Part shown: piece after piece, positions 2,975-17,390 of the stretch
Layout of the letters: each line of letters begins with the position of its first letter
Position numbering within the stretch: the first letter of the stretch is position 1
Source: Bacteroides sp. OF04-15BH
GTDB taxonomy: Bacteria > Bacteroidota > Bacteroidia > Bacteroidales > Bacteroidaceae
DNA length: 17,419 bases
Reading direction: 5' to 3'
Assembly (NCBI RefSeq): GCF_003477995.1
Contig: NZ_QUEM01000044.1
Location: 475-17,893, forward strand
Made by a program: the position numbers and the translations under genes
Notes under the pieces: generated by a model
Database searches by the model: none
The model's input: the letters and a program-made list of their open reading frames with translations, nothing else
Told to the model about the DNA's origin: nothing

Positions 2975-3388
2975 ATGGTGAGATTTGGCAATTTTGAAGT
3001 GGAATATAACCGCAATGCACCTGATAAGGTGAGCGTAAGGATAGAAACGGACGACAAGGGCGAGGTATGGTTGCCGAAATGCGACATCGCACGGGCGTAT
3101 GGCGTGTTTGTACAGTCGGTAAATGCCGGACTGAAATCCCTTGCAAAAACCGGTGACTTTGATGAATACCGGGATGTGCGGGTGGAACATTTCACCTATA
3201 ACGGAAAAAATTGCAGTGTGGACCTCTACAGTCTGGCAACCATCATTGCACTGGGATTCCGCATGAAGGGACTGAAATGCGAGGCATTCAGAAAGTGGGC
3301 TGCAAGACGGTTGGCAGAATCATTTGAAAAGAAGAAAAGTACGGTGATTCTTTGCATGAGCGGCGAAAAGAGAAACAGCTGGAACTGA
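2975..3388 (+). CDS. Small RhuM-like protein
   Basis: A 137-residue protein. The central part (a WLPKCDIARAYGV stretch, then SVNAGLKSLAKTGDFDEYRDVRV and a DLYSLATIIALGFRMKG segment before FRKWAARRLAE) follows the layout of RhuM-type proteins: a helix-turn-helix-like recognition of a gene-regulatory kind, then the sequence asking for D-x-IIA-x-G-[YF]-R and FR-x-WA. The biochemical role of RhuM-like proteins is not settled. It follows the integrase remnant by 44 bp and ends before a strong terminator at 3412-3457. Odd point: its last codons (3360-3375) are one copy of the dispersed GGCGAAAAGAGAAA word, here read as GEKRN rather than in the EAKREN frame used elsewhere, so the natural C-terminus may have been replaced. 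Start chosen at the first in-frame ATG. Confidence 0.7.
   Translation: MVRFGNFEVEYNRNAPDKVSVRIETDDKGEVWLPKCDIARAYGVFVQSVNAGLKSLAKTGDFDEYRDVRVEHFTYNGKNCSVDLYSLATIIALGFRMKGLKCEAFRKWAARRLAESFEKKKSTVILCMSGEKRNSWN
3360..3375 (+). repeat. Dispersed purine word, copy 1 (alternative reading frame)
   Basis: GCGGCGAAAAGAGAAA, one mismatch from the consensus GAGGCGAAAAGAGAAA, at the very 3' end of the RhuM-like gene. It is read here in a frame shifted relative to the copies in the DUF3945 and methylase genes. Confidence 0.75.
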
Positions 3389-3411
3389 AAGCCGCAGGAT
3401 ATGGCGGATAT

Positions 3412-3457
3412 ACGTGTCGGGATAGTCTCCCCTGTTCGGGAGGCTGTCCCGACACGT
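3412..3457 (+). terminator. Strong intrinsic terminator hairpin
   Basis: ACGTGTCGGGA at 3412-3422 pairs perfectly with TCCCGACACGT at 3447-3457. The stem continues inward with seven Watson-Crick pairs and two G-T pairs to a 20-bp stem around a six-base loop (3432-3437), followed by GTTTTATAT. It lies 24 bp after the RhuM-like gene and would end that transcript. Confidence 0.85.
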
Positions 3458-3485
3458 GTTTTATATAAGTTAAAAAATATAAAAC
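3458..3485. repeat. 9-bp inverted repeat directly after the terminator
   Basis: GTTTTATAT at 3458-3466 faces ATATAAAAC at 3477-3485, with ten bases between. It abuts the terminator stem. It could be a second weak hairpin, making termination bidirectional, or a protein-binding site in the leader of the phosphoribosyltransferase gene. No clear -7 element is seen between here and 3566. Confidence 0.6.
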
Positions 3486-3565
3486 CGCAAACGCGCTTAT
3501 CCGTAAACCGATAATAATGTGTAACTTATGTCCCTCTTAAACCTGTAATTAAAGACAGAAACGGT

Positions 3566-4507
3566 ATGGTGGAAGAATTTGACCTGCTTGAAGAGGTGGA
3601 AGTGCAGTTCTGCGATGAGGAATGCACGGAGTCGGTATGGCACGGAGTGAATTACAGCGAAAGCCTGTTCTGCAGGGAGAAACCGAAGTCGGAACTGACG
3701 GTAGTCATCAGAGAGGAAGGCATGATGTACTTCCTGACTGCGGACATAAAGGAGTTTGCCGGTCTGTGCCGGAAACACGGGTGGTACATCGTCTCGCACC
3801 AGCGGTTCAGCGAGGCGATGGAAATCGGCATGTGCCTGATGGAAGCCGGGAAACATGCGGGATGGTATTCGCTGGGCAGGTCGAAGGAATGGAATGCCAT
3901 GATGAGGGATGTGCTGAACTTTACGTTTGAAAGGGAGAAGAAAATGGACTTCTACCCGTACGAAACGATGTTCAAGGGAGAAGTTCTTATAGACGGGTGC
4001 AGGTGTCACTACCTGCATGACTATTACCCAACGAAGATTGAAAAGACGAATGCACACCAAAAACGGGTAAGCAACCTGATATTCCGTTTTAAGGAAGGAG
4101 GACACTGTGGCGAGCTGGTCGCACGGATACTGGCACTGTGTCTGAAACATGCGGGATTCAACGGAAAGAAGGAAGACACGGTACTGATACCTATACCCGC
4201 ATCAACAAGGGAAAGACAGCGGAAACGCTTCCCGGTGGTATGCTACTACCTGTCGGAATGGCTGGGCATTACGGACGGTTTCAAGGCCATCTGGATAGAG
4301 GAAGACCGCGAGCAACTGAAAGGAAAGGGAAAGGATAAGGACATACTGCGGAACCTGCAATTCACACGGCGGTATATCAGAGGAAAGAATGTTGTCCTGC
4401 TGGATGATGTACTCACGACCGGGGAGAGCTTCAGGCAACTGCAACGAAAGATGAAACAACTGGGGGCATTGTCGGTTATCGGGGTGTTTCTGGGGAAGAC
4501 GGTGTGA
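3566..4507 (+). CDS. Phosphoribosyltransferase-domain protein (ComF-like C-terminus)
   Basis: A 313-residue soluble protein. The C-terminal half is a type I phosphoribosyltransferase fold: a VLIPIPAS strand near residue 205 and the PRPP-binding loop VVLLDDVLTTGES at about residues 276-288, with the paired acidic residues and TTG expected of the family. Spacing and the HDYYPT segment before it resemble ComF-type proteins, but the double-zinc finger of ComF is not visible. The N-terminal 110 residues are unrecognised. Proteins of this kind occur in Bacteroides conjugative elements; substrate and role are unknown. The reading frame has the balanced base composition of the element core, and its TGA at 4505-4507 is one base from the convergent stop of the AT-rich cassette. 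Confidence 0.75.
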   Translation: MVEEFDLLEEVEVQFCDEECTESVWHGVNYSESLFCREKPKSELTVVIREEGMMYFLTADIKEFAGLCRKHGWYIVSHQRFSEAMEIGMCLMEAGKHAGWYSLGRSKEWNAMMRDVLNFTFEREKKMDFYPYETMFKGEVLIDGCRCHYLHDYYPTKIEKTNAHQKRVSNLIFRFKEGGHCGELVARILALCLKHAGFNGKKEDTVLIPIPASTRERQRKRFPVVCYYLSEWLGITDGFKAIWIEEDREQLKGKGKDKDILRNLQFTRRYIRGKNVVLLDDVLTTGESFRQLQRKMKQLGALSVIGVFLGKTV

Positions 4508-4508
4508 G

Positions 4509-5405
4509 TCAGTCGTATTTCATTTTCAAAAGTTGCCCTAATTCACTGTCTTTAAAGTTTGGGGTACTTTTTATTCGAGATACAATCTGTTGTGCTGCTT
4601 TAGATGAAACTGGATTTTTTTCAATCAGAGATTTCTGTAAATCCGACCGTTCAAAAAGACACTCTATAATGCGGTTGTCATTTATTGTCCAATCTTCGAT
4701 GAACGTCGTTTTTTCATATTCTGGTAGATTATTAACCAAGTATCCATATTCAAAGTCACCACTAGTTGAAGGCAATAAATCTGCAAAAAATATAAAGTTT
4801 GGGCACTTGCAAAAAAAGGCACAATTAATCATTATATCTAAGTTGTCTGTAATAACTCCAAAATCACAACTTCTTTTTAAATAAAATAGTAAATCAGCAT
4901 TATCGGAAAATTCTGAGATGATATTATCAAAAGTTGCAATATAAATATTGGAATATATCTCAGGAATATCCCCTCCATTCAAATATTGCTTCCATTCTTT
5001 TTCTGCATCTATAACCAAGTCATAAATCTGTTTGTTTTTAAAGGCACTTTGAAAATTATCAGGGTGAAGATGCATTAAATAATGGATGGAACGCCATAAT
5101 AAGGATACTGAGAAATAAAATAATTCATTTCTCATCTTTATTGGCTGAATGATTGTTTTTTGTTTATTATGATAATAATCAAACACGTTTTCTTTAAACC
5201 ATTTTTCTTGTTTTGAAAATAATAGTTCTGCCTTATTTCCCAAAAGAGGAATTTTAATACCGTCTTTATGCTCTAATTTAGGATTATAAGTAGAACGAAA
5301 ATAGCAGCCTCCTTTTTTCTTTAAATCAGCATAAAAGAATTTTGGTATGATATGTGAGGCTTTTAAATCAGTTACTTCTCCTGTTAGTGCACAAAATTTA
5401 TTCAT
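4509..5405 (-). CDS. SHIIPKF-family protein, degenerate HNH-like
   Basis: A 298-residue protein, last gene of the cassette. The N-terminus has C5-A-L-T-G, then SHIIPKF (residues 17-23), then DGIKIPLLGNKAELLFSKQE (residues 48-67). This is the layout of a family often annotated as HNH endonuclease-like, found in and around bacterial defence islands. In typical members a C-x-x-C pair and a second cysteine pair (C-x-x-C-E-x-x-F-S) surround the histidine; here only C5 is present and the second pair reads G-N-K-A. Zinc binding and nuclease activity are therefore doubtful. The rest is helical, with aromatic-rich segments and no membrane span. It starts 73 bp after the putAbiC-like stop. A role as effector, or as a partner of the membrane protein, is only inference from gene order. 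Confidence 0.6.
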   Translation of the reverse strand: MNKFCALTGEVTDLKASHIIPKFFYADLKKKGGCYFRSTYNPKLEHKDGIKIPLLGNKAELLFSKQEKWFKENVFDYYHNKQKTIIQPIKMRNELFYFSVSLLWRSIHYLMHLHPDNFQSAFKNKQIYDLVIDAEKEWKQYLNGGDIPEIYSNIYIATFDNIISEFSDNADLLFYLKRSCDFGVITDNLDIMINCAFFCKCPNFIFFADLLPSTSGDFEYGYLVNNLPEYEKTTFIEDWTINDNRIIECLFERSDLQKSLIEKNPVSSKAAQQIVSRIKSTPNFKDSELGQLLKMKYD

Positions 5406-5477
5406 GTCTATTGATTTATATATTTTTCAATGTATAGCTTTTATAATACTGTTAGTAACAATATGTGTTGTAACTGG

Positions 5478-6542
5478 TTAAGTATATTTTGCTTCTAAAA
5501 TACTTCTTTCTCTTGGAATTGTTATAGAAGCTTCAAAATTTATATTGGGATAAAATTTTATAGGAGAATATTTATCTTCTTCCCCCAATGGAATATTTTT
5601 AATGAAATTATATTTTGTAATAAGTTTATCATTTATATTGTTGGCATTATACTCCCATTCAGCCCCTAAATCACTTATTGTATCATAGAATAATAACTTT
5701 TCTTCTGTATTAGACATCTGACATCTTAAAATCTTTATATATTCATATTTCTCCATATAATGTAAAAACCGCTGCTTATTCACATATTTTACGCACTGAA
5801 ATAGTGTTCTAAAATAATTACCACTTTCATGTTGAAATCCTGTGTAATATTTGTTGTCATTATTTATAATATTTGAATATTCAATAGGACCATGATATAT
5901 TGCTATATTGTTACTGCCATTTATCCTTAAACGAAAACTTTTTAAAATATCATTTATGACATCTTCATTATATTTTTTCAGATACCTATTTTTCAAAAGA
6001 TTGTATCCATATTTCTTTACGCCAAAGAAAACAATCAAAAAACTAATATTAATAATGGTACGCTCTTTTAACAACTCTTTCCATTTATTTTGGTCTTTAT
6101 TGAATTCATTAATATCAGCGTATACAGTATCAATTTCTGCACCACTAATAATCTCATCTACAATTACTATAGCTTCTTCAATCTGTTTAACAAAGAACTC
6201 CATAAACTCAATAGACAAATCCTGATTAGGATTTTTATTGAGCAGTGAATTGGCTTTTTCTCTATTAAATTTTATCAATTCAAAATATTTGCTTTCAAAA
6301 TTTTGAATTTGAAACTGCCTTCCTTGTTCTTTCAGAGTCTGATATAAATAATAAATACTTATAAAGGCTGCTATACCACCCAGAAATGAACCATATTTAT
6401 CCAAATAATCTGCATCAAATAACCAACTTAAACCAGTTTGAATAATCAAAGTTATTGCAGCATAAATTAATAGTAATATGGTTATGCCTAAAATAATATA
6501 TTCTATTCGTTTACAGTTCCTGAAAATTAATTTCATGAGCAT
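5478..6542 (-). CDS. putAbiC-like putative phage abortive infection membrane protein
   Basis: A 354-residue membrane-anchored protein. Two hydrophobic helices lie at about residues 14-35 and 51-68, followed by a polar, probably coiled segment. The C-terminal domain carries the signature of the putative phage abortive infection family (putAbiC, PF16872): H238-E-S-G-N-Y-F-R-x-L-F-Q-x-V-K-Y-V, then YIKILRCQMSNTEEKLLFYD at about 268-287. Family members are associated with abortive infection; the molecular mechanism is not established. Its ATG at 6542 lies inside the 3' end of the SIR2-like gene (32-bp overlap, different frame), so translation is likely coupled. A second in-frame ATG (6536) follows two codons later. 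I expect a membrane-tethered cytoplasmic effector or sensor; that is inference. Confidence 0.75.
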   Translation of the reverse strand: MLMKLIFRNCKRIEYIILGITILLLIYAAITLIIQTGLSWLFDADYLDKYGSFLGGIAAFISIYYLYQTLKEQGRQFQIQNFESKYFELIKFNREKANSLLNKNPNQDLSIEFMEFFVKQIEEAIVIVDEIISGAEIDTVYADINEFNKDQNKWKELLKERTIINISFLIVFFGVKKYGYNLLKNRYLKKYNEDVINDILKSFRLRINGSNNIAIYHGPIEYSNIINNDNKYYTGFQHESGNYFRTLFQCVKYVNKQRFLHYMEKYEYIKILRCQMSNTEEKLLFYDTISDLGAEWEYNANNINDKLITKYNFIKNIPLGEEDKYSPIKFYPNINFEASITIPRERSILEAKYT

Positions 6543-7817
6543 TAGCTTGAATTATAGTTAATTGTGATTTTCTCTTTGCCGAATGACCTTGGATACTCAT
6601 AGACATATAAGAATTAGAAGAAAATCCATACAATTTTTCCATCTTCTTTATTACGTTGTCTACATTTGTATCAATAATAAATATAGGTTTAGATATACAT
6701 TCATGTAATATACTATTAAAGTGCTCATCAGATTTATTGAATGAATAACCTACAATAATAATTTTGTCTGCTTCTTTCATTTTTTGCTCTGCTTTATACC
6801 ATGTTTGAATAAAGGTCTTAGAAAGCACAGGTTTAATTTTTATTGGTGGCAAAAACTCAGGAATAGAATACTTTATATTATCCTCCTCAAAGTTTATATT
6901 GGGAGTTAATTGGTTTTCAATAAATGAAATAATATCTAATGAGCAATATTCTTGATCTTCAATTTTTATTTCTGTTTTATTCTGGATATCTACATAATTC
7001 ATCAAATTACCATGAAAATATAATGCAGGATAGTCCTTTCCTTTTGTAAAGAAATATGCAAATGAAGAGTAGTTAAAAGTAACAATCTGCCAATCTTCCG
7101 GAATCTTAGAATATACGGGAAACTCATGCATTCGTTCACTATATGTTGTATATATATCATTTTCCTTCTTTTTAAATATACCCACAACATCCATGATATA
7201 TAAATGTAATTTTTTATAGATGCTGGCTTGTCTATATAAAAACCGATAAAATAATTCATCAACAAATCTTCAATATCTAATAAATTATGATATACGTGTT
7301 TTAATATAGGATGATTAGGCTCTTGCATACTTCTTTCCAAAATCTGTCTCATAACACTTTTAAAGGTGTCAGTATATACTAATTTTGAAAAATCGATAAT
7401 TGATTCATCTGTAACGGCAAAGTTTTCTCCAAAAACCTCTTCAATTAATTCAGCAGTTTCTTGATCCAATGTAGCCCCTGTTTTCATTGATTCTACCTTA
7501 TTCATAATAGCAACAATCAATTGACCCATTTTTTGGTTTTCAGGACTCAATGTGTTATCATTAGTAAGAACAGTTTGTACCCCCTCTTTAATTTTAGTAA
7601 TTTCTCTACCAAAATCTTGTACAAATCTTTCTATTGTATCTTTTATAAGTTTGTCAAAATGAAATCTTAATGATGGAATAATATTACGTAGCTTCTCATC
7701 TATTTCTCGTCCATCATTTTTTATAAAATCATTAATTTGAGGAATAAGTTCATTTGTCAATGGCATTTCAATACCAGATGTTGCATCTACTCCAGCTCCT
7801 AAAACTATAACTGTCAT
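6511..7817 (-). pseudogene. SIR2-like defence protein gene, broken by a single frameshift
   Basis: Two overlapping reading frames (7817->7002, 271 codons; ATG 7194->6511, 227 codons) together make one SIR2-like protein of about 435 residues if one base is restored in the A6 run at 7210-7215. The first frame carries the Rossmann signature GAGVDATSGIEMP (residues 7-19). The second carries FNYSS (N249 in the restored numbering), the YFHGNL histidine (H269) and the IIVGYSFNKSDEH strand (about 355-367). These fit SIR2/SIR2_2 domains of defence sirtuin-like NADases, where Asn and His are catalytic. Past the run the first frame becomes unrelated tail sequence. Either the gene is inactive, or the site permits slippage (A_AAA_AAT is a -1 slippery heptamer in the upstream frame), or the base is a sequencing error. 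The first residues follow a good -7 element. Confidence 0.8.
7210..7215 (-). other. Frameshift site in the SIR2-like gene
   Basis: The minus strand reads ATA AAA AAT in the upstream frame. A -1 slip on A_AAA_AAT, or one added A by transcriptional slippage, joins the N-terminal SIR2 part to the C-terminal part with no stop between (…PASIK-K/N-LHLYIMDVVG…). No obvious stimulatory hairpin is seen just downstream, so a plain one-base deletion or a homopolymer sequencing error is at least as likely. Confidence 0.65.
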
Positions 7818-7838
7818 ATTTGATATTTTAAATTTCTT

Positions 7839-7847
7839 GCAAAGATA
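7839..7847 (-). promoter_or_regulatory. Bacteroides -7 promoter element of the defence-type cassette
   Basis: The minus strand reads TATCTTTGC, an exact match to TAnnTTTGC, 21 bp before the ATG at 7817. The predicted transcript would have a very short leader. A -33 TTTG box is not clear; TTTTC/TTCTT sequences lie near the expected distance. Confidence 0.6.
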
Positions 7848-7903
7848 ATGATAATAAACAACTTATAAGAAAATCAGGAAGGAAAACGAGGAAAATCATT
7901 CCC

Positions 7904-7922
7904 TACTATGGAAATACTATGG
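7904..7922 (+). promoter_or_regulatory. Paired TACTATGG operator-like repeats
   Basis: TACTATGG occurs at 7904-7911 and 7915-7922, repeated with an 11-bp period (one helical turn), directly upstream of the -33 region of the excision-operon promoter. Position fits an activator site. In CTnDOT this operon is controlled by RteC, but the known RteC site is not the same sequence as far as I can tell. Confidence 0.5.
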
Positions 7923-7923
7923 A

Positions 7924-7953
7924 TTGTGCCTGCGCGGAGTTGCGCACCTTTGC
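7924..7953 (+). promoter_or_regulatory. Promoter of the excision-type operon
   Basis: TTG at 7924-7926 (-33) and CACCTTTGC at 7945-7953 (-7, one mismatch to TAnnTTTGC) are separated by 18 bp, near the usual spacing. A purine-rich GGAAGG at 7968-7973 sits before the ATG at 7976. Confidence 0.5.
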
Positions 7954-7975
7954 AGCGTAACCAATACGGAAGGAT

Positions 7976-8329
7976 ATGGAAATAATAACGATGGACAATG
8001 AGGTCGTGAAGACGATGATGGAGAAGATAGACCGCATAGCGGACTATGTTTTCAAGAAAGACAATGTGCCGAAGGAGGAAGCGGAAATCCTGCTGACGAG
8101 CGAGGAGGCGGCGGACCTGCTGAAAATCAGCACGAGGACACTGCAACGGATGCGAAAGGACAAGACTATTCCCTACATGATGGTGAGAAGCAAGTGCCGG
8201 TACAGACTGACGGATCTGGAGGAATGCGTGAGACGGAAAATCGTACACTGCAATCCCAAGACGCTGGAGGAGTTCAAGCATAACTACCTGATGACAAGAA
8301 AGGAGGCGGATGATGGAAGGGATTGGTAA
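7976..8329 (+). CDS. Excisionase-type helix-turn-helix protein (Xis2c-like position)
   Basis: A 117-residue DNA-binding protein. Residues 41-68 (TSEEAADLLKIS then TRTLQRMRKDKTIPY) form a winged-helix excisionase-type domain (HTH_17/MerR-like), with the wing in the following CRYRLTDLE segment. The N-terminal 35 residues form an amphipathic helix, likely for dimerisation. It is the first gene of an operon whose order (small HTH protein, small HTH protein, middle gene, topoisomerase) matches the CTnDOT excision operon xis2c-xis2d-orf3-exc, so a role in bending DNA at the element ends and in controlling transfer genes is likely. The next gene starts 20 bp before its stop. I see no element-specific feature that would allow the symbol to be given with certainty. 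Confidence 0.85.
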   Translation: MEIITMDNEVVKTMMEKIDRIADYVFKKDNVPKEEAEILLTSEEAADLLKISTRTLQRMRKDKTIPYMMVRSKCRYRLTDLEECVRRKIVHCNPKTLEEFKHNYLMTRKEADDGRDW

Positions 8330-8729
8330 GGATGTGTTCGAGGAATGGATGAAGCGCCTCATGGAACGGATTGACCGGCTGGACAGCATCATATCGGTGC
8401 TGATAAACAAGGAAGCGGCGGGCGTGAAGTACATGGACGGAGAACGGCTGTATGACAATCAGGACCTGTGCGAGATGCTGAGAACGAGCAAACGGTCGCT
8501 ACAGCGGTTCCGCAGCGAATACGGACTGCGTTACCAGAAAATCAGCCGCAAGACCTACTACAAGGAATCGGACGTGCTGGAGTTTATCAGCCGGAACATG
8601 GAAGAGGTGACGCAGGACGGCAAAAAGGTGCTGAAAGTGAAGGAAGGAACGGGAAAGAAAGCTCCGAGCAAAACGGCGAAAGGGAAAAAAGGAGGCAGAA
8701 GGAATACCGGGACTGAAAAGCGTACGTGA
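8310..8729 (+). CDS. Second helix-turn-helix protein (Xis2d-like position)
   Basis: A 139-residue DNA-binding protein overlapping its upstream neighbour by 20 bp, which suggests translational coupling. Residues 9-33 form an amphipathic helix; residues 46-74 (RLYDNQDLCEMLRTS, then KRSLQRFRSEYGL) are a winged-helix domain, with the wing in YQKISRKTYYKESDV. It resembles its neighbour and probably arose from the same ancestor. The last 35 residues are a Lys/Gly-rich basic tail (KKAPSKTAKGKKGGRR), likely disordered and able to contact DNA nonspecifically. In CTnDOT the gene in this position is xis2d, needed for excision. An ATG doublet at 8310 and 8313 makes the exact start uncertain by one codon. 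Confidence 0.85.
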   Translation: MMEGIGKDVFEEWMKRLMERIDRLDSIISVLINKEAAGVKYMDGERLYDNQDLCEMLRTSKRSLQRFRSEYGLRYQKISRKTYYKESDVLEFISRNMEEVTQDGKKVLKVKEGTGKKAPSKTAKGKKGGRRNTGTEKRT

Positions 8730-8907
8730 AACGGAGGCGAAAAGAGAAACCGGAAGTGGATGGTGAACCGGATGTAAACGGGAAGCTGAGGGTATGTCTG
8801 ATGCAAACCGGGACTGTAAGGTGAACGGGAAACCGGAACAAAAAGAAAAACAGACCTGCACGGGAATACCGGCGGGACTATGATCAAACAATAAAAAAAA
8901 TCAATCA
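8730..8907 (+). repeat. Repeat-rich spacer with an intergenic copy of the dispersed word
   Basis: A 178-bp gap inside an otherwise tight operon. It contains a perfect GGAGGCGAAAAGAGAAA at 8733-8749, five bases after the upstream stop and outside any gene. It also has short direct repeats reaching back into the upstream gene tail: GGAATACCGG at 8701-8710 and 8863-8872, and ACCGGGACTG at 8706-8715 and 8807-8816, plus several CCGGAA/ACGGGAA words. No promoter or terminator is evident; it could be degraded repeat expansion. Confidence 0.65.
8734..8749 (+). repeat. Intergenic perfect copy of the dispersed purine word
   Basis: GAGGCGAAAAGAGAAA with ACG before it and CCGG after it, five bases downstream of the second HTH gene stop (8729) and far from the next start (8908), so it is not protein-coding. 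Confidence 0.85.
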
Positions 8908-10728
8908 ATGGAACAGAAAAAGAAAAAGCAAGAGGATGTACTGGTCGTCCGCGACGAGAAGACGGGCGAAATCAGTGTGGTTGCCGGACTGGATGCCAGG
9001 GGCTATCCCAAGAGGGCACAGGCAAAGGCGGAACACTCGCAGGAGTTTTTGCGCTTTGACCGCCACGGGGATGCGATAGACAATTTCATGAGAAATTTCT
9101 ACCGTCAGTGTAAGGAGCCGACGCGATTCGGTTTCTACAGGGTGGCAGCGGACACGGTGGAAGCTCTGCTTCCGGTTATCAAGGACCTGCTGAAAGACCC
9201 AGTGGCGAATGCTGACCTGCTCGCACCGCATAAAGTGGATACATCGGCGTACCAGCAGGCTGAGGAACAGCAGACTACAGAGGAGGCGAAAAAAGAAAAT
9301 GCCGAAACGGAGACTGAAGAACAACAGACTGCGGAGGAGGTGAAAAGAGAAAATACTGAAACGGAGACTGAGGAACAGCAGGCTGCGGAGGAGATGAAAA
9401 GAGAAAATGCCGAAACGGAGGCTGAGGAACAGCAGGCTGAGGAGGAGGTGAAAAAAGAAAATACGGAAGAAAACAATGTGGAACAGAAAACGGACGAGAA
9501 AATGAAAGAAATGAAACAGAAAAATCAGGAACAGCAGCCGCAGGCAGCGGAAACGCAGACGGCACAGGGACAACAGCCCGCACAGGAAGGGCAAGCGCAG
9601 GCAAAACCGGAGAAACCGAACCTGATTGCGGACAGCGATGTGGACTGGAAGGAACTGGAGCAGTTCGGTGTGAAAAGGGAAAACCTGTCTGAAAAGGACA
9701 TGAAAGCCCTGATGAACTACGGGAAGACAAGGCTGGTGACGGTGGAACCGGTGCTGGGCGGAGAACGCTATGAGTTGCAAGCCCGACTCTCGTTGCAGAA
9801 AGCGGAAGACGGAAAGCTGAAACTTACCCCCCACTTCGTACGCCATGAGCCGAGACTCGACGTGCCATACAACGGCTATACATTCACGGACGAGGACAAG
9901 CAGGCACTGAAACAGACGGGTAACCTGGGCAAGCTGGTTAACGTTGCCGATACGAAGACCGGAGAGATGCGCTTGGCGTACGTAAGCATCGACCGACTGA
10001 CGAATGAGATAGTGGACGTGCCAACGAACAAAGTGCGCATCCCGAACCGGATCGGACTGACGGAACTGTCGAAGGCGGAACAGGAAATCCTGCGTGCGGG
10101 GCTGGCACTGCCCAAGGAGGTGACACTGAAGGGCGGGCGCAAGTTCGAGGCCATGCTGCAGGTGAACGCTGACAAGCGCGACGTGGAGTTTGTGCCGGAG
10201 CATCTGTGGCAAGGACAGTCGCAGCGACGCGGAAACGGACAGGAGAAAAAACAGAAAAGCCCGGAAGCCTCGGATGCTACCGGACAGCAGCAGAAGGAAG
10301 ACGGGAATCAGGAGAACGGACAGCGGCGCAACCGCTCGTGGACGAACGAGGACGGAAGCATACGTCCGATAGGCAAATGGAAGGACGACAAATTCACGGA
10401 ACAGCAGAAGGCGGACTATGTGGCGGGTAAGGTCGTGGTGCTTGCCAACGCGAAGGATGACAAGGGACAGCCCTGCACAAAATACCTGAAGTTCGACCGT
10501 GAGAAAGGCAGACCGCTGACCTATTCGGAAAACCCTGACCTGGCACAGACCGTTGCCCCGTCGAACGAGAGCCGCACACAGCTTGCGGTGAACAACGAGG
10601 GCAAGACGAACGAGGCCACCAGACATGTGAAGGAGCCGCTTCAGCAGGGACAGACCGCACCGAAGGACGACGCCCAGAAACAACAGCAGGAAAAACCGAA
10701 GAAGAGCAAAGGCATGAAGGTATCCTGA
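8908..10728 (+). CDS. DUF4099/DUF3945-type protein with KREN repeat array (orf3 position)
   Basis: A 606-residue hydrophilic protein with no signal peptide. Residues 1-110 are a conserved N-terminal region (LVVRDEKTGEISVV, then RFDRHGDAIDNFMRNFY). Residues 126-195 are four 18-residue repeats with cores EAKKEN, EVKREN, EMKREN and EVKKEN separated by acidic AETETEEQQ-type linkers; a Gln-rich linker follows. From about residue 244 (DWKELEQFGVKREN) there is a DUF4099-like and then a DUF3945-like region, with a further short conserved block near 475-560 (NEDGSIRPIGKWK). These domains are typical of Bacteroidetes conjugative elements and usually precede the topoisomerase gene; function is unknown. 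The C-terminal 60 residues are Gln/Lys-rich. The repeat array, in charged and probably disordered linker, may have expanded by slippage at the 54-bp unit. It is followed by the topoisomerase gene after 147 bp. Confidence 0.85.
   Translation: MEQKKKKQEDVLVVRDEKTGEISVVAGLDARGYPKRAQAKAEHSQEFLRFDRHGDAIDNFMRNFYRQCKEPTRFGFYRVAADTVEALLPVIKDLLKDPVANADLLAPHKVDTSAYQQAEEQQTTEEAKKENAETETEEQQTAEEVKRENTETETEEQQAAEEMKRENAETEAEEQQAEEEVKKENTEENNVEQKTDEKMKEMKQKNQEQQPQAAETQTAQGQQPAQEGQAQAKPEKPNLIADSDVDWKELEQFGVKRENLSEKDMKALMNYGKTRLVTVEPVLGGERYELQARLSLQKAEDGKLKLTPHFVRHEPRLDVPYNGYTFTDEDKQALKQTGNLGKLVNVADTKTGEMRLAYVSIDRLTNEIVDVPTNKVRIPNRIGLTELSKAEQEILRAGLALPKEVTLKGGRKFEAMLQVNADKRDVEFVPEHLWQGQSQRRGNGQEKKQKSPEASDATGQQQKEDGNQENGQRRNRSWTNEDGSIRPIGKWKDDKFTEQQKADYVAGKVVVLANAKDDKGQPCTKYLKFDREKGRPLTYSENPDLAQTVAPSNESRTQLAVNNEGKTNEATRHVKEPLQQGQTAPKDDAQKQQQEKPKKSKGMKVS
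9283..9460 (+). repeat. Tandem 54-bp repeats built on the dispersed purine word
   Basis: Four copies of GAGGYGAAAARAGAAA start at 9283, 9337, 9391 (GAGATG variant) and 9445, exactly 54 bp (18 codons) apart, all in the gene's own frame as E-A/V/M-K-K/R-E-N. A related VKREN occurs at about 9669-9683 in the conserved domain. Confidence 0.9.
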
Positions 10729-10747
10729 GTGCCACCACTAAATCCAT
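10729..10747 (+). repeat. Left arm of a 19-bp inverted repeat flanking the topoisomerase gene
   Basis: GTGCCACCACTAAATCCAT starts one base after the stop of the DUF3945-type gene. Its exact reverse complement is at 13075-13093, just after the topoisomerase gene, and its last 13 bases recur in direct orientation at 13513-13525. The remainder of the gap to 10875 shows no gene. Confidence 0.9.
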
Positions 10748-10875
10748 TACAAGAGAATAAACAACGGATTGAAACGGGGCCTCATGCGCCATGTACCGCA
10801 TATCCCACGGATAACCGGCGTACCCCGTTCCACTCCACAAGGAACAAAAGTATCAATGATTAAAACAGAAAATGT

Positions 10876-13011
10876 ATGATTACCATATTGGCAGAAAAAC
10901 CGAGCGTGGCACGTGAGATAGCACGCATCGCCGGAGCAACAAGAAAGGAAGAAGGATTTTATACAGGAAACGGATACCATGTGACATGGGCACTGGGGCA
11001 TCTGGTACAACCTGCCCTGCCTGAGGGCTACGGTTTCAAGGGATTCAGCAGGGACAGCCTGCCGGTGATACCGGAGGAGTTCATGCTGATACCACGCCAG
11101 GTAAAGACGGACAAGGGCTACAAGGCGGACGCGGCAGCGGTGAAACAGATAAAAGTGATTACGAAACTGTGGAACGAGAGCGACGGCATAATAGTGGCAA
11201 CGGACTGCGCACGCGAAGGGGAACTGATATTCAGATACCTGTATGCCTATACGGGCTGTACGCTGCCCTTCCGCCGCCTGTGGATAAGCTCGCTTACGGA
11301 CACCGCCATCCGCAAGGGATTGAAGGAACTGAAGGACGGGCATGAATATGATGACCTGTATCTGGCGGCAAAGGCACGCAGCGAGGCGGACTGGCTGGTG
11401 GGCATCAACGGCACGCAGGCACTGACCGTAGCCGCCGGACGGGGCACGTATTCGGTAGGACGCGTACAGACACCCACGCTGGGTATGGTCTGCAAGAGGT
11501 ACTGGGAGAACAGACGCTTTACGCCGGAACCGGTACACCAGCTGCATTTCTCGGTGACACCGGCGGGTACGGATACGATAGTGAAGTTCTCCTCGGTAAA
11601 GAAATGGCAGGATAAGGAAGAGGCGGCTGCATCATACAATAAGGTAAAGGCGAAGATGTGCGCCACCGTCACCAAGGTGGAAAAGAAGGAGAAGGTGGAG
11701 AACCCGCCGCTGCTGTACGACCTGACCACACTGCAGAAGGAGGCGAACACGAAACATGGATTCACGGCGGAACAGACGCTGGAGCTGGTGCAGAAGCTCT
11801 ATGAAGCGAAGCTCGTCACCTATCCGAGAACATCGAGCCGCCATATTCCGGAAGATGTGTTTGCTGAAATACCGCTGCTGTTTGAACGGCTGGCAGGACA
11901 CTCCGCCCTTGCGGAGAAAATCAGGGAACTGGGAGAACTGAACCGCCGTTGTGTGGATGCCTCGAAAGTGACTGACCACCATGCCCTGCTGGTGACACCC
12001 AACCGCCCGCTTGCCCTGTACAAGAACGAGCAGATCATCTACGACATGATTGTCGGACGCATGGTAGAGGCATTTTCGGAGGAATGTGTGAAGGATACGG
12101 CTACCGTAGTAGCGGAGGTGGTGCCGGACGCAGGCGAAAGATGCGAGAGCCTGACATTTGAGGCGAAAGGCTGCATCGTGCGCAAGGCAGGCTGGCGCGG
12201 CGTGTACGGAGAGTACGGCGAGGACAGCGGCAATACGGCATTGCTGGACTGGGCAGAAGGTGACACACTGGTGATGGCAGGATGCTCGATGAGTTCGGGC
12301 ATGACCCGACCGAAACCGCTGCATACGGAAAGTTCGCTGCTGGCAGCGATGGAGACCGCCGGACGCGATGATGTGGAGGATGAGGAGGCACGCCAGGCCC
12401 TAAAGGACTGCGGTATCGGCACACCCGCCACACGTGCCGCAATCATCGAAACGCTGCTCAGAAGGGAATACATGGTGCGTGTGAAGAAATCACTGGTGCC
12501 GACGGAGAAAGGGCTTGCCCTGTATTCCATTGTCAAGGAGATGGACATCGCCAATGTGGAGATGACCGGACGCTGGGAAGCGGAACTGGCAAAGATAGAA
12601 CAGGGAAAGACACCGCATGAGGCTTTTATGAGGGACATAGAAAGCTATACCCGCAAGATTACCACGGACCTGCTTGCGTGTGACCGTATTTTCGGGCACA
12701 AGGCATCGGGCTGTACCTGCCCCAAATGCGGCACGGGCACGATGCAGTTCTACGGCAAGGTTGTGCGCTGCGACAATCCGGAGTGCCTGCTACCCGTGTT
12801 CCGCCAGATAGCGGGCAAGACACTCACCGACGAGGAAATGACCGGTCTGTTGACGGAAGGAAAGACGGCGATGCTCGGCGGGTTCAAGAGCAAGCAAGGC
12901 AAGCTCTTCAGCGCTGCAGTAACTTTTGATGCGGAGTTCAATACGAAGCTGGTGTTTGCGGAGAGTAAAGGCGAAAGAAAAGGTACGAAAACGAAAGGAA
13001 GAAGAAAATAA
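10876..13011 (+). CDS. Topoisomerase III of the conjugative element (Exc-like)
   Basis: A 711-residue type IA topoisomerase, which passes DNA strands through a transient 5'-phosphotyrosine break. The TOPRIM domain begins at LAEKPS (E7) and has the ATDCAREGELIF motif near residues 108-119; the second position of the DxD pair is Ala, as is common in TopB-type enzymes where the motif reads DAG. The catalytic tyrosine is Y316 in LVTYPRTSS. A C-terminal zinc-finger-like group (C615, C618, C632, C637) precedes a basic tail. Size and position (after two HTH genes and the DUF3945-type gene) match exc of CTnDOT, which is needed for efficient excision in the natural regulatory setting. The gene lies between the two arms of a 19-bp inverted repeat and ends before a strong terminator at 13089-13118. 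Confidence 0.92.
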   Translation: MITILAEKPSVAREIARIAGATRKEEGFYTGNGYHVTWALGHLVQPALPEGYGFKGFSRDSLPVIPEEFMLIPRQVKTDKGYKADAAAVKQIKVITKLWNESDGIIVATDCAREGELIFRYLYAYTGCTLPFRRLWISSLTDTAIRKGLKELKDGHEYDDLYLAAKARSEADWLVGINGTQALTVAAGRGTYSVGRVQTPTLGMVCKRYWENRRFTPEPVHQLHFSVTPAGTDTIVKFSSVKKWQDKEEAAASYNKVKAKMCATVTKVEKKEKVENPPLLYDLTTLQKEANTKHGFTAEQTLELVQKLYEAKLVTYPRTSSRHIPEDVFAEIPLLFERLAGHSALAEKIRELGELNRRCVDASKVTDHHALLVTPNRPLALYKNEQIIYDMIVGRMVEAFSEECVKDTATVVAEVVPDAGERCESLTFEAKGCIVRKAGWRGVYGEYGEDSGNTALLDWAEGDTLVMAGCSMSSGMTRPKPLHTESSLLAAMETAGRDDVEDEEARQALKDCGIGTPATRAAIIETLLRREYMVRVKKSLVPTEKGLALYSIVKEMDIANVEMTGRWEAELAKIEQGKTPHEAFMRDIESYTRKITTDLLACDRIFGHKASGCTCPKCGTGTMQFYGKVVRCDNPECLLPVFRQIAGKTLTDEEMTGLLTEGKTAMLGGFKSKQGKLFSAAVTFDAEFNTKLVFAESKGERKGTKTKGRRK

Positions 13012-13074
13012 TGAGTAATTTTGCCACTGATTCATGTCATAATCTGTTTCAACCTGGTTGTACTTTTTATTTAC

Positions 13075-13093
13075 ATGGATTTAGTGGTGGCAC
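13075..13093 (-). repeat. Right arm of the 19-bp inverted repeat
   Basis: ATGGATTTAGTGGTGGCAC on the plus strand is the exact reverse complement of 10729-10747. Its last five bases are the first bases of the terminator stem at 13089-13097, so pairing with the left arm and folding of the terminator would compete in RNA. Confidence 0.9.
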
Positions 13094-13118
13094 CCGGAGG
13101 GATACCGGGTGCCTTTTT
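13089..13118 (+). terminator. Terminator of the excision-type operon
   Basis: GGCACCCGG (13089-13097) pairs perfectly with CCGGGTGCC (13105-13113) around a seven-base loop, then TTTTT at 13114-13118. The stop of the convergent cargo gene starts at 13119, so the two transcription units meet here. Confidence 0.9.
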
Positions 13119-13469
13119 CTAATCTTCCATCCAGCGATATTTGCGCGTGTATCCACCCTCCGTTTCAAAAATGCGGTCATCATCTGATAATACGCTTTTC
13201 AATATATGTCCAGCATCTTTGGCTGCTTGCTCAAAAGCGTAATCATGAGGTTTGCCAGCATTTATGTAACGGAAATACAATACTCCAAGTGGATAATGTT
13301 CCCAATAATAATTATCTCCACCGATAAAATCTCTTGCTGAGAACCATTCTCCCTTGCGATTTTTACACCAGCAATAAACGGCTCCTTGTAAAAAATCTCT
13401 TATACGCTGCATGTCGCTTGCGCTGATTCCATGAACAACTTTAATGGTTGTATTATCTCCTTTAAGCAT
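13119..13469 (-). CDS. Small conserved-looking protein of unknown function (cargo gene)
   Basis: A 116-residue soluble protein I do not recognise. It is rich in aromatic residues (YCWCKNRKGEWF, DNYYWEHYPLGVLYFRY), acidic at the C-terminus, with no membrane span or signal peptide. It runs against the surrounding plus-strand genes, is less GC-rich than them and has its own -7 element, so it looks like an inserted single-gene cargo unit between the topoisomerase and DUF1896 genes. It is bracketed by 13-bp inverted repeats (13075-13087 and 13513-13525). Small single genes placed this way in conjugative elements are often defence, anti-defence or regulatory genes, but nothing in the sequence decides this. 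The start at 13469 gives the best distance to the promoter element at 13495-13503. Confidence 0.7.
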   Translation of the reverse strand: MLKGDNTTIKVVHGISASDMQRIRDFLQGAVYCWCKNRKGEWFSARDFIGGDNYYWEHYPLGVLYFRYINAGKPHDYAFEQAAKDAGHILKSVLSDDDRIFETEGGYTRKYRWMED

Positions 13470-13494
13470 ATGGTTTTATATAAAAATTCTAATT

Positions 13495-13503
13495 GCAAAG
13501 TTA
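13495..13503 (-). promoter_or_regulatory. Bacteroides -7 promoter element of the cargo gene
   Basis: The minus strand reads TAACTTTGC, an exact match to TAnnTTTGC, 25 bp before the ATG at 13469. No clear -33 TTTG is seen. Confidence 0.55.
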
Positions 13504-13512
13504 TCAATAAAT

Positions 13513-13525
13513 CCACTAAATCCAT
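13513..13525 (+). repeat. Third copy of the inverted-repeat core
   Basis: CCACTAAATCCAT, identical to 10735-10747 and to the complement of 13075-13087. It lies six bases before the ATG of the DUF1896 gene, at a position comparable to the left arm ahead of the topoisomerase gene. Confidence 0.85.
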
Positions 13526-13531
13526 CATAAA

Positions 13532-13981
13532 ATGAAACAGAACAAGAAAACCGCTCCGGCGGAGCTGTCCTACTACGGGCTGTATCTGCTGGACTATCTG
13601 AGAAAATATCATCCGGACAAAGTATCAGACACCCCATTCATTACTGGAAGGGAGGAAGCCGCCTCGGAAACATTCGAGAAGGAAAGGACGGCGGGAAGTA
13701 CGGTGGAAGCCGCACAGGAGGAAGCCATGCGCGTCCTGCTCGAAGGGTTGCACTTCTCCCCCTACGCACTGTTGCTTGAGGTGGTGGAAAACGAGTTTTC
13801 CGAAGAGGTGCAGGAACAGGAACGCGAGGCGTTCTGCCGGGAGATATTCCCGCATCTGAAAAACCTGTTTGCCGGCTATCCCACAACGGACGACACATTC
13901 GCCCTGTCGCCCGAACACGACCTGCTCTATACGGAGCTGACGGGTGCGATAATGCTTTATCTGGAGGCTTATGGCGTTTAA
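13532..13981 (+). CDS. DUF1896-type protein
   Basis: A 149-residue soluble, acidic protein of the DUF1896 type (LSYYGLYLLDYLRKYHP, then a central EEAMRVLLEGLHFSPYALLLEVV block and an FPHLKNLFAGYP segment). The family is found almost only in Bacteroidetes conjugative elements, directly ahead of the large methylase/helicase gene; function is unknown. Its last 11 bp overlap the next gene (ATG at 13971), so the two are probably translated together. No -7 element is evident just upstream. The leader includes the CCACTAAATCCAT repeat. Confidence 0.85.
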   Translation: MKQNKKTAPAELSYYGLYLLDYLRKYHPDKVSDTPFITGREEAASETFEKERTAGSTVEAAQEEAMRVLLEGLHFSPYALLLEVVENEFSEEVQEQEREAFCREIFPHLKNLFAGYPTTDDTFALSPEHDLLYTELTGAIMLYLEAYGV

Positions 13982-16900
13982 CAAGAAGCAGAGGCTCAGG
14001 GAAAACATCGAGGCGATACGGACGGCATTCACAATGGAGAAGGAACAGCGTACGCCCACCGCACGGGAAAGGGCGCTGTTGGAGAGGTACTGCGGCTTCG
14101 GGGGACTGAAGTGCATACTGAATCCCGCCAGGGAACTGACGGATGCCGTACACTGGGCGAAATCAGACCTCGAACTGTTTGCCCCGACGGTGGAGCTGCA
14201 CCGTCTGATACGTGAGAACAGCCGGGACGAAACGGAGTACAGGCGGTATGTGGACTCGCTGAAGGCATCGGTACTGACGGCATTCTATACGCCGCAGGCC
14301 ATTGCGGACACCATAGCGGACGTGCTGCACGACCGCAAGGTACGCCCAAGGCTGGTGCTGGAGCCGTCGGCAGGTATGGGCGCGTTCATCAGCCCAGTAT
14401 TGTCGAACAATCCGCAGGCGGAGGTGATGGCATTTGAGAAAGACCTGCTGACGGGCAAGATGCTCGGACACCTGTACCCGCAGCAGAAGATACGCACGGA
14501 GGGTTTCGAGAAAATAGAAAAGCCGTTTCTGAACCATTTTGACCTTGCCATCTCCAATATCCCTTTCGGGGATTTCGGAGTGTTCGATGCGGAGTTCAGC
14601 CGCAGCGCATCCTTCGGCAGACGTTCGGCACAGAAAGCCATCCATGACTATTTCTTTCTGAAAGGTCTGGATGCGGTGCGTGACGGCGGCATCGTGGCGT
14701 TCGTCACCTCGCAGGGGGTGCTGAACAGTTCGAGGGTTTCCGTCAGGAACGAAATGTTCAGCAAAGCGAATCTGGTATCGGCAATACGACTGCCCAACAA
14801 CCTGTTTACCGACAATGCAGGCACGGAAGCCGGCAGCGACCTGATCATCCTGCAAAAAGACCTGCAAAAGAAGGGACTGACACAGGAGGAACGGGTTATG
14901 ACCATCATACAGACGGAACATAACGGCGGACTGACGGACAACGCCTATTTCGCCTACCACACGGAACGTATCATACATACCGATGCGAAGAGGGGTACCG
15001 ACCCGTACGGAAAACCGGCGATGGTATATACGCACAGCGGAGGTGTGGAGGGTATTGCCATAGACCTGTACAGGATGCTGTCGGAAGACCTGTCTGCACG
15101 GCTGGACATGGAACGCTACAACGGCATGGGGCATGAAAGAGAGGATGTGCGGCAGAACATTGCTGTACAGACCGAAGGTATTGAGGCGAAAAGAAAAAAT
15201 ACCCATCCGGTTGCGGGTGAGCTGGAGGAGGTGAAAAGAGAAAATTCCACCTCTGTTGCGGGTGTAACGGACGGGACAAAAAAGGAAGAAAACAGTGTGC
15301 ACCCGAAAGCGCAAGCCATGACCGGCATGTCGCAGGAAGCACCAGGCAGACAGATGGGAGGGACGGTAATGGACCTGTATGACCTGTTCGGTTATACGCA
15401 GGAGGAAAGACGGATGGCTGAACAGGGCCTGAAACCGGACAGAAAGAAAGGGGGAAAGTACAAAGGGAAGAAACCCGTGCAGCCGACACTGTTCTCCCTG
15501 CCAGTGGAGGATACGGGAAGGACAACGGACAAGGGAAATGCGGAAGCGGTTGCCGGCATCAGCCCGGAAGAGGTACGCGAAATGGACGAAATCATACGCG
15601 GCGGAACGGATGCGCCGACGGCTGCCGAAACGGAGGCGGCTGTCCCGACAACAGAAAAGACGGGACCCGGCACCGCAACGGAAGAATCCTATGACCCGGA
15701 AGATGAAGTGTACCGCAGTCTGGACTGGGAAACGAACCCGCCCATCAACGGATTCTATGAAATGATGATGTACCTCACGCCGGAACGACGTGCGGAACTG
15801 CGCCGGCTGGGAAAGACTAAGATGGAAGCCAACACCGCCAGACAAGCGGCCGGAACAACGGAGGCGAAAAGAGAAAAAGCCGATGCAGGGAAAACGGCGG
15901 AAACGCAGGATACGACTGCTACGGTAGTCTATCCGGTGGAAAACGGATTCGAGGCGGAAAGGAAGCGCCGGATTGCGGAGGTGGAAGAAGCCATGCGCCG
16001 TGAGGAAGCCGCCCTGACACCGGAAGAACGGCAGCGCAAACGGGAGGAGGAAATGATGCCGCGCCCGTTCAAGGGCATACTGGAGCCGCACCTGAAGGAC
16101 GGCTCGCTGGCATGGGAATACACGGCAGGCGTACGATTTCAGGTGGGCGTACTGAAGGATGTCACCCGTTACGGCGCCACATTCCAGCCGCTGGACATGG
16201 ACGGGATGCAGGTACAGAAGGCACAGCTATACATAGACCTGCGCAACACCTATGAGCGGCTCTATGCCTACGAAGCGGAAAAGCACGAGGAGAACGAAAT
16301 GCTGCGCCGCCACCTGAACACCTACTATGACGAGTTCGTGATGCGTTACGGTTGCCTGAACGCCAAGCAGAACGTGAAGCTGCTGATGATGGACGCTTCG
16401 GGACGCAACATGCTGGCACTGGAACGCAGCGAGGGCGGCACGATGGTGAAGGCGGACATATTCGACCGCCCCGTTTCCTTTTCGCAGGAAACGGCAGTCG
16501 CCGCGGAATCGCCGGAGGAAGCCCTGTCCGCCTCGCTGAACATGTATGGCGGAGTAAACCTGCCCTACATGGAATCCATCTGCGACATGCCGCAGGCGGA
16601 CATGCTGGAGGCACTGAAAAGACGGGTATTCTACAACCCACTGGCAGAGGGCTACGAGATAGCCGACCGCTTCATAGCCGGGAATGTGGTACAGAAGGCC
16701 GCCGATGTGGAGGAATGGATAAGCGGACACGGGGAGCACGGGATGCTGCCGCAGGCAAGGGAGTCGCTGGAAGCGCTGAAAGAAGCCATGCCGGAACAGA
16801 TTCCGTTTGAGGAACTGGACTTCAACTTCGGGGAACGATGGATACCCACGGGCGTGTATGCCGCCTACATGAGCCGTTTGTTTGACACGGACGTGCGGAT

Positions 16901-17390
16901 AAGCTACTCGGAGAGTCTTGACGAGTATTCGGTGGCGTGCGGCCACAGGACGATGAAAATCACCGACGAGTTTCTGGTGAAGGGGTACTACCGCCACTAT
17001 GACGGGATGCACCTGCTGAAACACGCCCTGCACAACACCTGCCCCGACATGATGAAGAAGGTCGGCGAGGACGAGAACGGGAACGACATAAAGGTGCGGG
17101 ACAGCGAGGGCATACAACTGGCGAACGCGAAGATTGACGAAATCAGAAACGGATTTACGGAATGGCTGGAAGAGCAGTCGCCGGAGTTCAAGAAACGGCT
17201 GACGGACATGTACAACAATAAGTTCAACTGTTTCGTGCGACCGAAATATGACGGCTCGCACCAGAAATTTCCGGAACTGAATCTGAAAGGACTGGGAATC
17301 ACAGACCTGTACCCCAGCCAGAAGGACTGCATCTGGATGCTGAAACAGAACGGCGGAGGAATAGCCGACCACGAGGTGCTGCGCCCATAA
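13971..17390 (+). CDS. N6-adenine methylase/helicase-type protein, interrupted at its Walker A motif
   Basis: The visible 1139 residues are the N-terminal part of a very large protein (normally about 1900-2000 residues) typical of Bacteroides conjugative elements. A methyltransferase domain shows motif I LEPSAGMGAF (residues 130-138) and a motif IV-like NIPFG (196-200, in place of NPPF). A long charged linker (about 400-680) carries three KREN words. From residue 1113 (DLYPSQKDCIWML) the SNF2-like helicase begins, but the conserved sequence stops after GGGIADHEV (residue 1136), where G-x-G-K-T should follow; instead three foreign codons and a TAA occur. The remainder is therefore displaced by an insertion whose start lies at 17376-17379. 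The shortened protein would lack the ATPase domain and is probably inactive as a helicase unless the insertion is an intron that is spliced out. Confidence 0.85.
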   Translation: MAFNKKQRLRENIEAIRTAFTMEKEQRTPTARERALLERYCGFGGLKCILNPARELTDAVHWAKSDLELFAPTVELHRLIRENSRDETEYRRYVDSLKASVLTAFYTPQAIADTIADVLHDRKVRPRLVLEPSAGMGAFISPVLSNNPQAEVMAFEKDLLTGKMLGHLYPQQKIRTEGFEKIEKPFLNHFDLAISNIPFGDFGVFDAEFSRSASFGRRSAQKAIHDYFFLKGLDAVRDGGIVAFVTSQGVLNSSRVSVRNEMFSKANLVSAIRLPNNLFTDNAGTEAGSDLIILQKDLQKKGLTQEERVMTIIQTEHNGGLTDNAYFAYHTERIIHTDAKRGTDPYGKPAMVYTHSGGVEGIAIDLYRMLSEDLSARLDMERYNGMGHEREDVRQNIAVQTEGIEAKRKNTHPVAGELEEVKRENSTSVAGVTDGTKKEENSVHPKAQAMTGMSQEAPGRQMGGTVMDLYDLFGYTQEERRMAEQGLKPDRKKGGKYKGKKPVQPTLFSLPVEDTGRTTDKGNAEAVAGISPEEVREMDEIIRGGTDAPTAAETEAAVPTTEKTGPGTATEESYDPEDEVYRSLDWETNPPINGFYEMMMYLTPERRAELRRLGKTKMEANTARQAAGTTEAKREKADAGKTAETQDTTATVVYPVENGFEAERKRRIAEVEEAMRREEAALTPEERQRKREEEMMPRPFKGILEPHLKDGSLAWEYTAGVRFQVGVLKDVTRYGATFQPLDMDGMQVQKAQLYIDLRNTYERLYAYEAEKHEENEMLRRHLNTYYDEFVMRYGCLNAKQNVKLLMMDASGRNMLALERSEGGTMVKADIFDRPVSFSQETAVAAESPEEALSASLNMYGGVNLPYMESICDMPQADMLEALKRRVFYNPLAEGYEIADRFIAGNVVQKAADVEEWISGHGEHGMLPQARESLEALKEAMPEQIPFEELDFNFGERWIPTGVYAAYMSRLFDTDVRISYSESLDEYSVACGHRTMKITDEFLVKGYYRHYDGMHLLKHALHNTCPDMMKKVGEDENGNDIKVRDSEGIQLANAKIDEIRNGFTEWLEEQSPEFKKRLTDMYNNKFNCFVRPKYDGSHQKFPELNLKGLGITDLYPSQKDCIWMLKQNGGGIADHEVLRP
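15183..15243 (+). repeat. Two copies of the dispersed purine word in the methylase linker
   Basis: GAGGCGAAAAGAAAAA at 15183-15198 and GAGGTGAAAAGAGAAA at 15228-15243, 45 bp (15 codons) apart and read as EAKRKN and EVKREN. A weaker third unit (TKKEEN) follows at about 15276-15293, so this is a small, separate array with a unit length different from the 54-bp array. Confidence 0.85.
15861..15876 (+). repeat. Single perfect copy of the dispersed purine word
   Basis: GAGGCGAAAAGAGAAA, preceded by CG to give the same ACGGAGG context as the intergenic copy at 8734. Read in frame as EAKREK. Confidence 0.85.

Follow-up and report, generated by a model that had tools for sequence, protein, structure and literature searches.

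A dispersed 16-nucleotide word largely coincides with the core of coding repeats in two genes of a putative CTnDOT-like Bacteroides element

Introduction

The described systems closest to the locus reported here are the in-frame minisatellites, or variable-number tandem repeats (VNTRs), of bacterial genes, and the Bacteroidales conjugative elements of the CTnDOT type. The excision functions of CTnDOT include Xis2c, according to a published account (PMC5729914). We analysed a stretch of 17,419 nucleotides (nt) from Bacteroides sp. OF04-15BH (contig NZ_QUEM01000044.1; the whole stretch is called the window below), which, as judged from its genes, looks like part of a CTnDOT-like conjugative element, and in which the 16-mer GAGGCGAAAAGAGAAA (the word) recurs. 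It forms the core of coding repeats located in the linkers of two core proteins of this element, a DUF4099/DUF3945 protein and an N6-methylase, and this makes up most of the finding. The likeliest cause of the shared word, with a probability of about 0.5, is a combination of coding repeats, short copying inside the element and subsequent local amplification.

Results

The preliminary description of the window reported nine copies of the word with 0-2 mismatches, all on the plus strand, and all nine were located (Table 1). It missed a tenth, with 2 mismatches and antisense to the integrase gene, which is probably a chance match; all 10 copies lie on the plus strand. At ≤3 mismatches the window holds 10 matches; 200 dinucleotide shuffles averaged 0.26, and none of them attained 10 (maximum 3). 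When 16-mers of the plus strand alone were ranked by dispersion in the window and in the compared loci, GAGGCGAAAAGAGAAA was the most dispersed of the window, with 6 places more than 300 nt apart at ≤2 mismatches; the top 16-mer had 3 to 4 places in six outgroup loci and 7, 5, 4 and 4 places in the relatives L079 (a Phocaeicola barnesiae contig), L056, L053 and L077, respectively (first 18 kilobases (kb) of each locus). Because six of the nine reported copies are units of two arrays, the nine amount to about five independent places. The word was chosen in the preliminary description from this same window, and related elements share orthologous sites, so that control counts here and below are not fully independent.

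Seven of the 10 copies are read in phase 0 as E-[AVM]-K-[RK]-[EK]-[NK], and six of these lie in the two arrays. The repetition is therefore for the most part ordinary expansion of coding repeats. The reading frames described earlier proved right: two genes read E-x-K-[RK]-[EK]-[NK] in phase 0, and the copy at 3360 is read in phase 1, as GEKRN. The units stand head to tail in the reading frame (54-nt array of 3.8 units in phase 0, found by Tandem Repeats Finder (TRF)), and their copy number differs among relatives. The motif occurs 4 to 14 times in a DUF4099 linker (107 distinct linkers; of 7992 homologs the best 120 were used, and 118 of these yielded a linker) and 3 to 7 times in a methylase linker (66 distinct linkers; of 2103 homologs the best 120 were used, all yielding one), a sampling that favours query-like proteins. 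The patterns used to find array units themselves fix part of the motif, and conservation there is partly by construction. The 571 full DUF4099 units fall into 174 distinct types, and all four combinations occur in 33 of the 36 pairs of variable unit positions, a mosaicism that is expected from recombination between units. Among loci of named isolates, array units number four in L053 and two each in L054, L056 and L077; none occur in L055, L057, L058, L080 or L085. Seven occur in L144 (genome G314). Model confidence for the DUF4099 linker is 24 to 50 in blocks of residues 131-230, which cover most of the array, and is weakly consistent with a disordered array linker.

Three further observations concern the DUF4099 gene. 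Masked letters within its array in L079 (8299-8473) perhaps mark an assembly gap in the repeat. A match at 9667, near the conserved DUF4099 domain, has 3 mismatches and reads GVKREN, and was set aside. Transition-only hypermutation of the array was rejected, with 25 transition vs 15 transversion minor states (24 complete of 25 units), which is not striking; part of these minor states comes from the divergent last unit.

The word also occurs outside the two array genes. In the window there are 2 such copies at ≤1 mismatch, where 400 permuted words average 0.005 and 1463 real purine-rich words average 0.0055, none of the latter reaching 2. At ≤2 mismatches there are 3, against means of 0.065 (permuted) and 0.107 (real purine-rich), a count equalled by 0 of 400 and 1 of 1463 control words. 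The real words were taken from other loci, and all 1463 that fitted were used. This excess argues for the foremost alternative to the copying explanation, which we regard as tentative: that the word is a sense-strand cis-acting site, in DNA or mRNA, bound by an element or host factor, the arrays being dense clusters of it. The phosphoribosyltransferase gene, which in the window begins 206 nt downstream of the start of the 3360 copy, provides a second argument, since the word precedes this gene exactly in L056 and L101 and with one mismatch in L146, and is retained in all three despite frame-breaking indels in the stretch. Copies also lie downstream of a coupling-protein-like gene in L102 and L175 (gene named by eye) and ~55 to 80 nt before a small open reading frame (ORF) in L176, with orthologs in L103, L168, L173, L051 and L052. 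Of 37 near-matches in the genomes of seven relatives, 25 are found no more than ~70 kb from the topoisomerase or DUF4099 gene of the element (proximity to these core genes being what we mean by "in the element"), 14 of them in array genes and 11, which again favour a cis-acting site, outside them. Counted among the 12 elsewhere are a G150 copy (C2:649811), 126 kb from the topoisomerase gene, and a G042 copy on the separate contig C22, though it is an ortholog of the L176 site. Outside copies occur also in elements without a DUF4099 array (e.g. in G127), and one copy lies in phase 1 in an RteC-like gene of L021 (gene named by eye).

Other evidence speaks against a cis-acting site. Most sites are not common to related elements, and the 22-kb core locus of L055 has no match at ≤2 mismatches, though the same element has two to three weaker matches beyond this locus (L172, L173). 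The 8734 copy, correctly described as unread (it starts past the stop codon of the second helix-turn-helix (HTH) gene), has the orthologs GAGGCGAAAAGAAAAA in L079 and TAGGCGAAAAGAAAAA in L144, with 0, 1 and 2 mismatches across the site. It has thus decayed off consensus in L144, where TAG also stands in the EAKRE frame, and it lies within a stretch that has a related segment 101 nt further on. The 3360 copy, whose orthologs have 1 mismatch in L079 and L144 and 2 in L053, encodes a C-terminus, GEKR, that is also present in the RhuM-like protein of L053. By inspection, the copy that follows the coupling-protein-like gene stands beside a terminator-like inverted repeat, and the small-ORF site is conserved no better than its surroundings. 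Across non-coding sites, the word is kept at one amid diverged neighbours, decayed at another and no better preserved than its neighbours at a third. When mobilization and transfer (mob/tra) stretches of five element sets were compared with 250 of 893 purine-rich words, four sets, which share orthologous sites, were enriched at the 0.8 to 2% level (≤2 mismatches) and the 0.8 to 4.8% level (≤1 mismatch), these being the fractions of purine-rich words that do equally well; the fifth, G169, had no match in 38 kb downstream. No evidence was found for any of the specific functions suggested previously, namely a binding site or a transfer or recombination signal. For an antisense RNA carrying the complement, the 12-nt core had no minus-strand match in the window at ≤1 mismatch. 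Rfam at gathering thresholds gave no match in the window, L079 or L056. A double role is doubtful, and less probable than a cis-acting site as such: here an element-specific, transcription-oriented DNA or RNA site with the core AGGYGAAAAGA would have been made into coding arrays by two core genes, serving both as cis site and as protein linker.

The spelling of the motif bears on what the two arrays have in common. Both share E-x-K-[RK]-E-N with the same codons, the DUF4099 and methylase arrays having a 22-nt identity and methylase linker 2 a 20-nt identity with the 8734 spacer copy. In nine elements, eight of which have motif copies (44 in total), every one of the 44 copies spells the lysine next to the variable residue as AAA, against 34% in the remainder of the genes and 56% in non-motif linker; where an arginine follows, it is AGA in all 26 cases, against 7% and 19%. 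Under linker codon use, EAKRE or EVKRE would be spelled as the word by chance in 0.6 to 0.8% of cases. Tandem duplication can make the units of one array alike but does not account for the likeness between the two arrays. That unrelated sites share a spelling is real, and neither codon use nor purine bias explains it; the codon and control-word comparisons contradict these as the full explanation, a possibility that the preliminary description had raised. Its claim of conservation at the DNA level beyond the protein frame holds in part: the spelling, the outside copies above controls and the non-coding copies in relatives bear it out, and it is limited by the predominance of one frame and of the two arrays. 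DNA-level identity beyond the reading frame exists. The statements that the C-type word has no stop codon in any frame and that the GTG variant would create one were correct (by inspection).

The same observations weigh on protein-level convergence, according to which an E-x-K-R-E-N docking motif would be favoured in both linkers and the DNA identity would simply follow. KREN is nearly invariant in 289 methylase units with varying flanks (the selection pattern fixes part of the motif), and both array genes lie in one gene cluster. With a codon choice far from gene and linker use, and with other-frame and non-coding copies that show the word not to be confined to the EAKREN frame, such convergence alone is improbable.

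Among relatives, the word is particular to this branch of elements, since none of the 23 loci with 60-68% topoisomerase identity has a match at ≤2 mismatches and 9 of the 10 loci with 80-99% identity have at least one. The 18-mer GAGRYGAAAARAGAAAAY has a match in 3 of 61, 3 of 158 and 12 of 392 genomes of three genome sets, and more than one only in G001, G250, G150 and G314, all of which have arrays or the element; the others have one each. Viral contigs contained 12 stretches with this 18-mer, one match each, and one stretch (L095) is nearly identical to L056; scans of viral contigs detected no relative of the topoisomerase or of the DUF4099 protein, and one distant relative of the methylase. 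A genome-wide host motif was rejected: 199 genomes of the family had 57 places at ≤1 mismatch vs ~87 for the reversed control (totals by manual tally, with G001 (14 places) and G150 (7) left out). The proposed count of the 16-mer across genomes thus gave no genome-wide excess, but near-matches do gather around the core genes of the element. An explanation by purine bias and chance alone, which the purine-rich sense strand and this genome-wide count would favour, is very unlikely, as counts in the element are far above those of shuffled, permuted and real purine-rich words.

The genes of the window (Table 1) follow the CTnDOT-type order of integrase, two HTH genes (only the first of which matches an excisionase family), a gene in the Orf3 position and a topoisomerase. 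We take the DUF4099/DUF3945 gene to be Orf3-like by position in that order. Many relatives of the methylase are ~2000 amino acids (aa) long with further domains (precomputed domains). The nearest compared genome, G001, has 39% of sampled words in common with the window, and relaxase-like and coupling-protein-like ORFs, named by eye, occur outside the window in the relative L102.

Table 1 Features of the window
Feature	Positions	Strand	Basis or remark
Tyrosine integrase gene	1228..2457	-	Pfam Arm-DNA-bind_5, Phage_int_SAM_5, Phage_integrase
Word copy, 2 mismatches, antisense to integrase gene	1688..1703	+	
RhuM-like ORF, 137 aa	2975..3388	+	Virulence_RhuM E 2.3e-07, 30.8 bits, under Pfam cut-off 33.7
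Word copy, 1 mismatch, phase 1 (GEKRN), end of RhuM-like ORF	3360..3375	+	
ComF-like phosphoribosyltransferase gene	3566..4507	+	Pfam Pribosyltran, NCBIfam comF, both under cut-off
HTH_17 protein, excisionase-type	7976..8329	+	Pfam HTH_17; NCBIfam TIGR01764 'excise' above cut-off
Second HTH_17 protein	8310..8729	+	Pfam HTH_17
Two related 45-nt segments, mostly intergenic	8706..8851	+	8706-8750 vs 8807-8851, 76% identical
Exact word copy, taken as non-coding	8734..8749	+	Starts 4 nt past second HTH stop
DUF4099/DUF3945 protein gene	8908..10728	+	Pfam DUF4099 E 9.9e-23, DUF3945 E 1.6e-13
54-nt coding tandem array, 3.8 units	9260..9462	+	TRF; copies at 9283, 9337, 9391, 9445
Topoisomerase III-type gene	10876..13011	+	Pfam Topoisom_bac E 1.2e-114
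DUF1896 gene	13532..13981	+	Pfam
N6-methylase gene, 1139-aa ORF	13971..17390	+	Pfam N6_Mtase E 3.4e-10
45-nt-spaced coding repeat, methylase linker 1	15183..15243	+	Copies at 15183, 15228
Exact single copy, methylase linker 2, EAKREK	15861..15876	+	

Other sequences in the window and its relatives were noted in passing. A second integrase remnant (2745-2930, 61 aa) matches the end of the Phage_integrase domain, and a terminator-like hairpin (3412-3457; 20-nt arms, 90% complementary, 6 nt apart) lies between the RhuM-like ORF and the phosphoribosyltransferase gene. The motif CCACTAAATCCA is exact at 10735-10746 (+), 13076-13087 (-) and 13513-13524 (+), with 0.06 expected at ≤1 mismatch; it precedes the topoisomerase and DUF1896 genes, with an inverted copy between them, and is a second repeated leader motif. 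Exact copies of the longer CACCACTAAATCCA number 1 to 4 per genome in six relatives. A ~40-nt sequence occurs three times in the mob/tra region of G150 (L102:11789-14117), with one further copy in G150; four places with it are listed in G428, and it is also present near the word in L056 and L101.

Discussion

The favoured explanation, in which coding repeats are joined by short copying inside the element, can be set out in steps. The arrays would expand and contract by slippage and unequal recombination, and may act as length-variable charged tethers between folded domains. Short DNA copying within the element would have brought identical spelling to unrelated places, some of them non-coding, and local amplification would have followed; a dedicated cis function is not invoked.

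Several points weigh against this explanation. Among the compared sequences no site was found that has a copy in one allele and lacks it in another while being otherwise unchanged, and no copying event was caught. At ten of 11 compared places the word has the orientation of the adjacent gene, a bias that would not be expected from copying, although purine-rich coding strands favour it. The variants of the two arrays differ, with K or R in one and R in all 289 units of the other, so that the arrays are not freely exchanging units now. Chimeric metagenome assembly may add to the mosaicism of the DUF4099 units, as short reads can scramble repeats and many variants are metagenomic. The low confidence of the linker model is set in a protein whose mean predicted local distance difference test (pLDDT) score is just 61.2 and whose conserved first 80 residues score 36 to 46. 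Finally, in methylase linker 2 of five lineages, five motif codons are fixed at the third base while three of them change amino acid, and with the window moved by one codon four change amino acid with third bases still fixed. These six codons with a kept third base favour a cis-acting site. All third bases are fixed in 21 of 868 five-codon windows, and three or more changing residues occur only in the two overlapping linker-2 windows; from column rates, the estimated probability is ~0.001 for a pre-chosen window, with nearly one such window expected per gene. This fixity looks like DNA constraint and is suggestive only.

The hypervariable repeats, which lie in two core proteins of a conjugative element of gut bacteria, offer a ready strain marker, and they point to a fast-changing linker in the element's excision and transfer machinery. 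No open-access paper was found whose title concerns the word or the arrays; should the word also function at the DNA or RNA level, these elements would have in it a control site that is undescribed in the titles of the papers found.

Comparison with known systems places the locus nearest to coding VNTRs. Diversity-generating retroelements are alike in having repeats with concentrated variation, but were rejected: no reverse transcriptase was found in ten scanned window proteins (a distant one was not looked for), and unit changes include C/T, not adenine-only. Palindromic coding-gene repeats, such as the Rickettsia palindromic element (RPE), are likewise short DNA repeats in several unrelated genes and spacers; the word, in contrast, is non-palindromic, ~16 to 22 nt long, mostly on one strand and in one frame, and no insertion boundaries were seen. 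With the CTnDOT-type excision module, the locus has in common an integrase, two small HTH proteins, an Orf3-position protein, a topoisomerase and a downstream DNA methylase, a likeness of gene order and domains, and it differs in its repeat arrays. Like in-frame minisatellites or VNTRs in bacterial genes, it has in-frame units (54 and 45 nt), copy variation, mosaic units and a linker position. Unlike them, it combines two arrays of different unit length, in two genes of one element, with an 18 to 22-nt core in common and further single copies elsewhere in the element.

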